NCBI GenBank assembly: GCA_004322435.1
Contig: SCTT01000227.1
Span: 1-33,291 of the forward strand
Length of the DNA: 33,291 nt
Reading direction: 5' to 3'
DNA from: a bacterium
Lineage (GTDB): Bacteria > Elusimicrobiota > Elusimicrobia > UBA1565
The notes under the pieces were generated by a model that saw nothing but the letters and a program-made list of their open reading frames with translations, searched no databases and was not told where the DNA came from. Each line of letters starts with the position of its first letter. The first letter of the stretch is position 1. The position numbers were made by a program, and so were the translations under genes. Positions 13,177 to 16,771 of the stretch are shown piece by piece.

Positions 13177-13752
13177 TCAGTCGTTAGCCTTGAACCCGTC
13201 GCGGAAGGCGGCGAAGGCCGCCGCCTGCTTCGCCCACGCGGCCGCGGGCGCGCTGACCGTCACGACCCAGAAGCCTTCCTTGCCCTGGAGCACCGTCAGC
13301 TCCTCGCGCACGGCCACCTCGCGCGGCTCCGCGGCCGGCGCCCGGTGGACGGCGAACGTGTCGCGCCGCAGGCTCTTCGCCGGGCGGCCGGAGAGCTTCG
13401 CCTCCTCGACGGGGCCCGTCTTCTCCCCTTGGATGGGGACCGGCGACGGCGCGGTCTGGCGCGCGAGGAAGTCCGCCGCGTCCTTGAAGTGGGGGTTGCC
13501 CTTGGCGTAGTAGACGGCGGAGGCCGTCGGCGCCGGGGCGTCGGGCGCGGCGGGGCCGGTGACCTGCAGTCCCGTCCCTTCGCGGTCCTTGGTGACACGC
13601 CAGCCCTTCGGGGCGGCCGCCTTGAAGCGGCCGCCCGACACCTCTTCGACACGGCTCATCGCGGCCTCCGGGCGGGCCTTCACGGGACGCTTGGCGGACG
13701 CGGCTTGAACGGCCGGCGCGGCCAACAGCAGAAAGGCGAGCAAGGCCCTCAT
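13177..13752 (-). CDS. Predicted exported protein (191 aa), unknown
   Basis: Signal peptide 'MRALLAFLLLAAPAVQAASA'; start overlaps the upstream gene's stop by 4 nt. Confidence 0.75.
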   Translation of the reverse strand: MRALLAFLLLAAPAVQAASAKRPVKARPEAAMSRVEEVSGGRFKAAAPKGWRVTKDREGTGLQVTGPAAPDAPAPTASAVYYAKGNPHFKDAADFLARQTAPSPVPIQGEKTGPVEEAKLSGRPAKSLRRDTFAVHRAPAAEPREVAVREELTVLQGKEGFWVVTVSAPAAAWAKQAAAFAAFRDGFKAND

Positions 13753-15653
13753 TTCTTCTTCCCCGGGCCGCCGCCGCCCGTCGGAGCCGGCACGAAGCCC
13801 GTCTTCGTCAGCGACCCGCCGGCGAAGCCCCCGTTCGGCTGGGGAGACGACAGCGAAGCCAGCACCCCGGCGGCCAGGGCCTGCGTCTCGGCGTCGCGCG
13901 CGCGGTATTCGGCGTAGGTGCGCGGGACCGCGGCCCGCGCGTCGGTCCGCGCCGCCAGGGCCTGCTCCTGCCGGCCCATCATCGTCCGAAGCGTCTCTTC
14001 CTTGAGCCCGGGCAGCGCGGCGACCCAGGTGTCCCGCGTGAAGCGCCCCTGGAGGCCGGCCTGCCCCGCGGCGTCCAGAGCGGTCCGCTGCGCGCGCGGG
14101 AGCGCCGCGCGGCGGGCCAGCTCGGCGCGCAGCTGATCGCGCATGTCGGTCATCACGCCGTTGTCGTAGGCGCGCGCGGCGTTGGCCTCGATGGAGACCT
14201 CGGCGGGGTAATAGTCCGCCTGGATGGACATCCGGAAAGTCTCGGGCGAGCGCTGCATCTTGTTGGCGAGCGCCGCGCCCTCGCGCACGAAGACCGAGCT
14301 CTTCTGGTTCTCGGCCATGAACTTCCCGTAGCCCTTGGGGTCCTGGGCCGACTTCTGCAGGATGAAGGCGGCCTCGAGGGTCTTGGCCTCCATCTCGTGC
14401 TCGACGACGTCCCAGTAGGGCACCTTGTGGTCCCGCCGCCAGACCGCCTGCTCTTGGTGGACCGACTCGTGCACGATGGTCGACAGCGTCGACTTAAGGG
14501 CGCGGTCGAACATCTCGCCCTTGAGGAGGTCCCCGGCAGACTTGCCCTGCTCGCGCGCCATGCGCAGGAGGAGGTCCTCGCTGACGGCGAGGACGTTGTC
14601 GTGGGCCGTGTACTGACCCATGATGCCGGCGGGCATGGGTTTGACGACCAGGTTGAAAGGCTCCTTGGCGTACATCCGCAGGAGGCGCTCGCCGACCACC
14701 GTCCCGGCCATCTCGCGCTTGACGCCGGTGACGAGCATCTCGCTCAAAGCCTGGCGCCCCGCTGCGTCGAGGCGCTGGTCGGCCCGCCCGGGTCCGGCGC
14801 GCTCGACGGCTTCGTTCCGCACGTTCATCCCGTCGAAGAGGGAGCCGAGCTTCCCGAGCATCCCGTCCACGTCGCCGGACTTGCGGGCCTCGGCGAGCTT
14901 GGCCGCCAGCGCCGGGTCGGGGTTCTTCCCGAGCTTGCTCTCCGCGTCGGCCAACGCCGCGGAGGCGGCGTCGGTCTTCTCGAAGTGCTGCAGTAGCGCC
15001 GCCTTCACGTCCTTGTCGAGGTACGTCCAGATCTTCTGGGCCTGGTCCCGCAGCGCCTTGGCCTCGGCGGGCGTGCGCGCGACCGAGCCCTTGAGCCGGT
15101 CGACGGCGGGGTTCAGCGCCGCCTCGAGGGCGTCCGAGCGCGCGCCGTAGCCGGTGCCCGCCCACTCCCCGGGTTTCTTGCCCGCCGCCGTCAGAGCGGT
15201 GCGGACCTCGGCGGGCAAGGTGGTCCACTCGAGCAGGGCGGCGCGGAGGGTGTCCTCCTTCTGGTAGTCCGCGTACTTCTTTCGCCAGGAGAGCAGCTCG
15301 GCCGGCTTCTCGAGGAGCGGGTATCCTTCGCGCTTCGAGAGCGCCTCGCGCAGCGACGTCGTGTTGACGTGGTCGACCATCACCCGATGGAGGTCGACGA
15401 GCTGGGAAGCCCCCTCGAAGAGGCGGTCGAAGGCTTGAGGGTCCGCCTTGCGCAGGAGCTCATGCGAGTCGGTGCGGTCGAGGAACGCCTTCGACGCGTA
15501 AGGGTCGCGGTCGGTGAGAATCTCTTTGGAGAGCTCGGCGAAGAGCGGCGCGGCGCGGGCTTTGAGCTCGGGCGTGGCTTCCGGCTCGGGAGGGGCGGCC
15601 CGCCCTGACAGGGGGGCGAGGAGGAGGAGCGCTGCGAGGGGTAGCAGCCGCAT
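13749..15653 (-). CDS. Predicted exported HExxH protein (putative zinc metallopeptidase), family not recognised
   Basis: Signal peptide 'MRLLPLAALLLLAPLSGRAA'; 'LSTIVHESVHQEQAVW' (HESVH = HExxH) followed by 'DVVEHEMEAKTLEAAF'. Confidence 0.75.
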   Translation of the reverse strand: MRLLPLAALLLLAPLSGRAAPPEPEATPELKARAAPLFAELSKEILTDRDPYASKAFLDRTDSHELLRKADPQAFDRLFEGASQLVDLHRVMVDHVNTTSLREALSKREGYPLLEKPAELLSWRKKYADYQKEDTLRAALLEWTTLPAEVRTALTAAGKKPGEWAGTGYGARSDALEAALNPAVDRLKGSVARTPAEAKALRDQAQKIWTYLDKDVKAALLQHFEKTDAASAALADAESKLGKNPDPALAAKLAEARKSGDVDGMLGKLGSLFDGMNVRNEAVERAGPGRADQRLDAAGRQALSEMLVTGVKREMAGTVVGERLLRMYAKEPFNLVVKPMPAGIMGQYTAHDNVLAVSEDLLLRMAREQGKSAGDLLKGEMFDRALKSTLSTIVHESVHQEQAVWRRDHKVPYWDVVEHEMEAKTLEAAFILQKSAQDPKGYGKFMAENQKSSVFVREGAALANKMQRSPETFRMSIQADYYPAEVSIEANAARAYDNGVMTDMRDQLRAELARRAALPRAQRTALDAAGQAGLQGRFTRDTWVAALPGLKEETLRTMMGRQEQALAARTDARAAVPRTYAEYRARDAETQALAAGVLASLSSPQPNGGFAGGSLTKTGFVPAPTGGGGPGKKK

Positions 15654-15714
15654 GGTCCAAGTTTGACCCCGGAAGCGGGGGTTTTCAAGGGGCCTGGGCC
15701 GCGAACCGTTGAAC

Positions 15715-16069
15715 AGCGTAATTTACGCGCCTCGGGCGCGTGGGTTCGAGGATTCCATGCGGCCGGAATCCTCGAACCTCCTCTCCTTGAACGGCGAGAA
15801 TCCTGGAATACTGGCCAGTTCATCCACAGCAGAAGTGGTCTGAATTGACAAAATTCGACTCGAAATTTTCGACAGATTTTACCGCCATTCTGGCGGTAAT
15901 TACTCCTGATATTTGCAGCATGATTTTATTCAAATCCGCCCACTACGTTGTGGATAAAACCCTTGGGACGACCCTGAATTCCTGACCATCGCCGTTCATT
16001 GCGAGGAGGTTCGAGAGTCGCGGCCGTCTGCGACTCTCGAACCCACGCGCCCGAGGCGCGTAAATCGCT
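15715..16069. repeat. Large structured quasi-palindrome (~355 bp): nested hairpins in mirror arrangement around an AT-rich centre with DnaA-box-like 9-mers
   Basis: 15721-15750 ATTTACGCGCCTCGGGCGCGTGGGTTCGAG is the exact reverse complement of 16036-16065. Internal 14-bp hairpins 15743-15778 and 16008-16043. Central 9-bp hairpin TTACCGCCA-TTC-TGGCGGTAA 15879-15899. Confidence 0.9.
15949..15957 (-). promoter_or_regulatory. DnaA-box consensus match TTATCCACA, paired with TCATCCACA at 15820-15828 (+)
   Basis: Exact 9-mer on the minus strand (plus: TGTGGATAA); the partner has one mismatch and opposite orientation. Confidence 0.4.
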
Positions 16070-16138
16070 CCGTCAGGCTGTAATGCCTGAAATAGTCCGG
16101 GACTCGGGAGGCCCAGTCCGCTTCTAGGCCTTTTGGGT

Positions 16139-16144
16139 TACAAT
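16139..16144 (+). promoter_or_regulatory. -10-like hexamer TACAAT, 6 nt from ATG 16151
   Basis: TACAAT-GTCCCT-ATG. Confidence 0.6.
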
Positions 16145-16150
16145 GTCCCT

Positions 16151-16771
16151 ATGAGAATCCTCCTCGCCGTCGCCCTGCTGGCCCTCTCCTCCGCCTCCGG
16201 CTCCGCCGCCGAGAAGAACCGCCGCTACGTCAGCGCCGACATCCGGGGCACCTTCCGCGACCGCTGGGACATCTCGGACCACCAGGGCAAACTCTGGATG
16301 AACGTCTCCACCTTCGGCAACTCGGTCAATTTCAGCGGGCGGCCCATCTCGGGCTCGGTCTGGGGCGGGGGCAACAGCTGGTCCATCTCGGGCGGCTCGG
16401 TCTCCGGGACGGTCAGCAAGTTCGGCAACAGCCTGTCGGTGCGGGCGACCATCCACGGCCCGCGCGGCAGCCGCTGGGTGAACTTCGAGCTTTATGCGAT
16501 GGGGCCTATGGACGACCCCAACCGGGCGCCGTCCTTGAGCCTGAGCGGCATGGACGCGAACCTCAACTTTTCGCCCTCGTTTAACCGGGACTACTCGGTG
16601 AGCGGCTCCATCGACGAGGAGCGCTTCGGGGACGAGGGGCTGGCCGTGGCCTGCCTAGCGGCGGCCCTGGTCCTCAAGGAGCGACCGCAGACGGCCGCCA
16701 TTCCCGGCAAAGACTTCCTTAATAAGAGCGCGGTGGTCGCGCCCTTCCTCAAGACCGGCTTCGCGCGGTAG
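16151..16771 (+). CDS. Predicted exported protein with Gly/Ser-rich beta-repeat-like segment, unknown
   Basis: Start corrected from 16133 to 'MRILLAVALLALSSASGSAAE'; repeats 'FGNSVNFSGRPISGSVWGGGNSWSISGGSVSGTVSKFGNSLSV'. Confidence 0.7.
   Translation: MRILLAVALLALSSASGSAAEKNRRYVSADIRGTFRDRWDISDHQGKLWMNVSTFGNSVNFSGRPISGSVWGGGNSWSISGGSVSGTVSKFGNSLSVRATIHGPRGSRWVNFELYAMGPMDDPNRAPSLSLSGMDANLNFSPSFNRDYSVSGSIDEERFGDEGLAVACLAAALVLKERPQTAAIPGKDFLNKSAVVAPFLKTGFAR

Follow-up and report, generated by a model that had tools for sequence, protein, structure and literature searches.

We propose that the array of hairpins at about positions 15713-16073 of the window, a stretch of 33,291 nucleotides from an Elusimicrobiota MAG, is one copy of a non-autonomous mobile repeat of the REP/BIME kind, and we give this reading a probability of roughly 0.8. 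The repeat is not a GTAG/CGTC REP and belongs to no named family. A non-autonomous mobile element was among the candidates listed in the initial annotation, which was made from this single copy; it is now supported by the many dispersed copies, by their sharp ends and by orthologous sites that are empty.

The limits of the copy, originally placed at 15715-16069, had to be moved, because flank conservation at 101 ends puts the beginning of the conserved unit about 9-10 bp outward of TTTACG. Read on the plus strand, the left end begins with the terminal motif ACAGCGTAA (15713-15721; family consensus RACGGMGNAR read inward), whose conservation has a sharp edge at -10/-9 before TTTACG. It is followed by TTT with the fixed hairpin H1, ACGCGCC-TCG-GGCGCGT (15722-15741, H1 itself 15725-15741), and by the variable hairpin H2 (15743-15778), with covarying stem GGTTCGAGGATTCC and loop ATGCGGCC. 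The right end carries the same parts on the minus strand, namely H2' (16008-16043; covarying stem GGTTCGAGAGTCGC read inward, loop AGACGGCC), H1' with AAA (16045-16064, H1' itself 16045-16061) and the terminal motif, ACGGAGCGA read inward (16065-16073). Between them lies a core of subtype M1 (15779-16007, no strand assigned). Alignment of 13 M1 copies describes it as an imperfect palindrome with TGAACGGCG motifs inside on both sides and a central hairpin, TTACCGCCA-TTC-TGGCGGTAA (15879-15899, plus strand). The four hairpins originally recognized are thus all in place, and the outer arms of 30 bp are indeed perfect (15721-15750 pairs with 16036-16065). H2 and H2' differ at four stem positions, not at six as first counted.

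The two ends of the window copy form an ungapped inverted repeat of 77 nt with 83% complementarity. Its predicted fold is a four-way junction, in which the end parts in common pair together and the differing parts make local hairpins. The fold of 15710-16075 reaches -189.2 kcal/mol, compared to -110.2 +/- 5.4 kcal/mol in 100 dinucleotide shuffles (z = -14.6), none of which was as good. The terminal motif ACGGMGNAR is repeated just inside H2 as TGAACGGCG (15713-15797 and other ends), so that imperfect direct repeats flank the H1-H2 unit. A further motif, TAGTCCGGGACTCGGGA, is present at 16093-16109 (no strand assigned). A minority of ends have such an outer extension, some 44-49 bp beyond TTTACG; in the window copy its membership in the mobile unit is putative.

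The copy in the window is one of many. Its own genome contains 124 end motifs, i.e. more than 60 copies, compared to 0 for a reversed-pattern control, and two genomes of the same genus contain 19 (G001) and 4 (G002). BLAST of the own genome finds the repeat in dozens of places with differing flanks. The repeating unit of about 70 nt comprises the terminus RACGGMGNAR, the near-invariant hairpin H1 (TTTACGCGCC-TCG-GGCGCGTG) and then H2, which varies in sequence. The usual copy consists of two facing units and, between them, a variable core that measures about 60-300 bp and is often palindromic. Paired copies range from 203 to 436 bp in length and have their ends in common, while the cores differ (M1 in the window, M2 with GGATGGGACCGTCCTGAATTCAGG, others with central AACTATCCCTAGGGATAGTT); single-ended copies occur as well. 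A covariance model of the end matches 9 of 295 Elusimicrobiota genomes, all from one order. In one of them, from another genus (G003), pairs of about 245 bp with other stems recur, and lone H1-H2 units are found in more distant genomes from other families of the order (G007, G010, G014 and G019). Plasmid and phage collections yielded no match to the repeat.

Orthologous gene pairs that lack the insert in two sister species show that copies have been acquired. Inside a single species, no transposition event was observed. At one locus (L055), G002 has the flanking convergent genes side by side, with no insert between them; at another (L057), it is missing between the orthologous convergent genes in both G001 and G002. 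By eye, no target-site duplication was recognised in copy flanks or at the two empty loci, but at about 75-85% DNA identity the divergence of the sister species is too great to place junctions to the base. Empty sites, which the initial annotation had suggested looking for, are thus present at copies other than that of the window, where synteny is not kept in the sister genomes. In G001, an H unit and its outer extension, together about 174 bp, follow immediately on the stop codon of a transposase of the IS66 type and lie inside the IS tip, GTAACTGCTCAGGTCG, and the G003 homologue of this IS66-type end is uninterrupted. Seven G001 contig ends carry the composite of H unit and IS, with different outer flanks. 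The GTAACTGCTCAGGTCG tip was also considered as the element's own end in G001 and rejected, since the G003 copy assigns it to the IS66-type element.

The initial annotation proposed that pairing, not sequence, is preserved, and this holds strongly across copies. In a set of 62 distinct ends, taken from three genomes, standard pairs fill 98.4% of cells, compared to 86.7% in shuffles. H1 is near-constant within the genus (98.6% of cells paired in the 62 ends). In H2, double changes occur in 12 of 14 pairs and amount to 146 cells, versus 35 in shuffles, and the signal is lost when the partner is shifted by 1-3 columns. A separate stem search, which favours paired stems, finds H2 without mismatch at 145 of 151 ends. 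Half-changed H2 cells are scarce, with 3 G-U and 4 A-C in fixed register on the A2 alignment and hence no G-U excess. An apparent RNA-strand signature in H2 (33 GT versus 3 AC) was discarded, as it came from a biased, GT-tolerant stem finder and became 3 versus 4 in fixed register. Because RNA selection would predict an excess of G-U in H2, recognition of a DNA hairpin or template-switch correction fits the covariation at least as well. Of the selection on RNA or cruciform structure that the initial annotation invoked, the maintained pairing is confirmed; selection itself is not proven, given the missing G-U bias and the few half-changed intermediates.

The most serious competing explanation, to which we would give perhaps one chance in three, is that the perfection and covariation of H2 are mainly the work of template switching that corrects quasi-palindromes as they replicate, structure itself being under little selection. 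The repeat would be mobile also in this case. The 146 double-changed cells next to almost no half-changed ones, with G-U about equal to A-C, agree with such correction, and template switching is reported to be capable of both making and preserving perfect hairpins (PMC8794818). Two observations are at odds with it. Firstly, H1 hardly changes and H2 changes freely, though both are palindromes, which points to some constraint on sequence or structure. Secondly, the two H2 stems within one copy are kept different. An identical stem arm at both ends was found in 1 of 47 pairs, compared to 8.6 expected under random pairing, although these pairs are not independent, as subfamilies inherit both end types and copies are related by descent. 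The five G003 pairs that were read, with stems unrelated to these, are likewise heterodimers. Heterodimer preference in REP dimers has been reported without explanation (PMC3733652), and the same rule of differing ends appears here in two genera.

If mobility is accepted, the repeat might still be a classical MITE, i.e. an internally deleted DDE insertion sequence with the terminal inverted repeat RACGGMGNAR-TTTACGCGCC. The inverted ends, the sharp terminus and several subfamilies of 200-430 bp would suit this origin, which we nevertheless regard as doubtful: the copies read show no target-site duplication recognisable by eye, a search of the Y1 family gave no transposase with these ends, and lone H1-H2 units in other families of the order are not easily accounted for by a transposon with two ends. 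That search covered the Y1 family only, in MAGs whose contigs are broken by repeats and which may miss genes; none of the 21 Y1/RAYT (PF01797) loci (L145-L149, L169-L184) of three same-genus genomes (G000, G001 and G002) carries H1-H2 ends, and RAYT genes were rejected as their carriers. Many of the 21 loci are flanked by inverted repeats of their own; several have terminal inverted repeats of 30-40 bp, often starting with GGTGTCAG. Given the hairpin ends and the absence of a recognised target duplication, our best guess is that an enzyme with HUH/Y1-type activity moves the repeat, a DDE transposase being the alternative.

The copies are placed preferentially at the 3´ ends of genes. Convergent junctions hold 22 of 41 paired copies, whereas among the other junctions 6 of 88 are convergent (p = 8e-9). 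These statistics include copies related by descent and rely on gene calls from a simple finder, which had been trained on the codon usage of six ORFs. Ends facing a stop codon mostly lie 0-30 bp from it, with a median of about 20 bp, and for start-facing ends the distance to the start is mostly 60-130 bp. Such a placement can arise purely from selection against insertions that do harm. The surroundings are gene-dense, as initially stated, but the window copy lies between divergent genes (13749-15653 on the minus and 16151-16771 on the plus strand), unlike most copies.

Proximity of stop codons is also what one would expect of a structured RNA element at gene 3´ ends (mRNA stabiliser, processing site or bidirectional terminator), which would be under selection for RNA folding and would have spread secondarily. 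The strong folding and covariation are in line with this, as is the U-G pair common beside the H1 loop (52 U-G versus 88 C-G and no C-A). We nonetheless find such an element unlikely. Selection on RNA would favour G-U intermediates, yet A-C cells in H2 are as numerous as G-U cells; 15600-16200 contains no G+C stem with a T run behind it, as an intrinsic terminator would have; no described Rfam family was matched, with one sub-threshold chance hit; the sites are not conserved between sister species; and the window copy stands between divergent genes.

Some additional features were seen at gene ends. H1 by itself occurs as a minimal palindrome, TTACGCGCCTCGGGCGCGTAA, directly after a stop codon (L204; G001:C21 near 40355). 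At start-facing ends, an outer motif like CCAAGTTCCCGGACTATTC is found 44-49 bp outside TTTACG (L021, L023, L029, L031 and others), and in four loci the called start codon is about 95 bp from TTTACG, with TTGACA-like -35 sequences adjoining.

Two motifs in the core of the window copy resemble DnaA boxes, both putative by sequence: the DnaA-box-like TCATCCACA (15820-15828, plus strand) and TTATCCACA, which matches the consensus (15949-15957, minus strand). Such motifs are more frequent in element cores than in flanks. That the repeat serves replication, segregation or DnaA binding is very improbable all the same: TTATCCACA occurs in some cores, with 9 exact matches in 18 kb of elements versus 0 in 117 kb of flanks, counts that come from copies related by descent, but the motif is confined to a minority of copies of certain subtypes, and there are more than 60 copies at sites that are not conserved. 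Nothing else was found in support of the replication or segregation site considered initially. DnaA titration was rejected likewise, since the motif is absent from most copies. That the repeat is an inverted-duplicate chimera of assembly, feared at first, is refuted by the sequences themselves: contigs frequently end inside copies, but the two halves are not identical, more than 60 copies have different flanks, uniquely flanked copies exist in several independent assemblies, and orthologous sites elsewhere are empty.

Among known systems, GTAG/CGTC REPs combine an invariant tag with varying stems and form dimers of opposite orientation (BIMEs), with heterodimers preferred in many families (PMC3733652, Di Nocera et al. 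2013). They lie mostly between convergent or co-directional genes, conv-REPs less than 20 bp from both 3´ ends (PMC3733652). Like them, the Elusimicrobiota repeat is dispersed and intergenic and often forms inverted dimers at gene 3´ ends, and like CGTC REPs (PMC3733652) it had no linked transposase in the Y1 search. Whereas a REP is a single palindrome of 20-40 bp, the unit described here has about 70 nt and two hairpins, and its cores, unlike those of tagged REPs and BIMEs, reach about 300 bp. The REP tag is an unpaired GTAG or CGTC; in the Elusimicrobiota repeat, CGTG precedes H2 at all aligned ends, mostly within the 3´ side of H1. Elusimicrobia are not mentioned in the text of the REP survey (PMC3733652). 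REPINs with their RAYT transposases (PMC3116915, PMC8266576) resemble our repeat in being inverted hairpin pairs and non-autonomous mobile DNA that has multiplied inside a genome, and TnpA-REP cleaves GTAG REPs as folded single strands (PMC8266576). The repeat differs from REPINs in the lack of a GTAG tag, in its longer unit and core, and in the absence of a RAYT gene with these ends in the three same-genus genomes. Prokaryotic MITEs (PMC10969869) are similarly short, non-coding and intergenic, with inverted ends and stable transcript folding. Our repeat is unlike them in that no target-site duplication was recognised, no parent insertion sequence was found in the Y1 search, and the subterminal hairpins differ between the ends. 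The bcr1 repeats of the Bacillus cereus group are another mobile intergenic repeat with conserved secondary structure. They are set apart by their description, being unlike the Elusimicrobiota repeat in sequence, size and phylum.

We suggest that REP-like mobility could work here as follows. A trans-acting enzyme would recognise the H1-H2 end, either folded from a single strand or extruded. The arms of H2 would be kept matched through hairpin recognition, template-switch correction or both, and inserts would survive best at gene 3´ ends, where they do the least harm. A bolder version, which we offer tentatively and consider rather unlikely to hold as a whole, is that H1-H2 represents a two-hairpin mobile unit of ancient origin in one Elusimicrobiota order, served by an undescribed single-strand recombinase of its own. 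H1 would then be the fixed recognition hairpin and H2 a freely changing, always-paired arm, and either the enzyme or replication would enforce different H2 stems in a dimer. The family extends REP-like repeats to Elusimicrobiota, with the constant hairpin separate from the variable one, and presents a natural data set on whether hairpin arms are matched by structure selection or template switching.

Several copies (L037, L042, L049, L110 and on G001:C16) sit between two inverted REP-like sequences, e.g. GGTGTCAGTGTTTCGGAAGTTTCGGAACT, as if inserted within another palindromic pair. In one case (L139:1696-2413, on G001:C16), a gene of 144 aa from the family DUF6998 lies between two H1-H2 ends. 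On either side of this copy, which possibly carries cargo, are inverted versions of a sequence similar to the repeat at RAYT locus L171.
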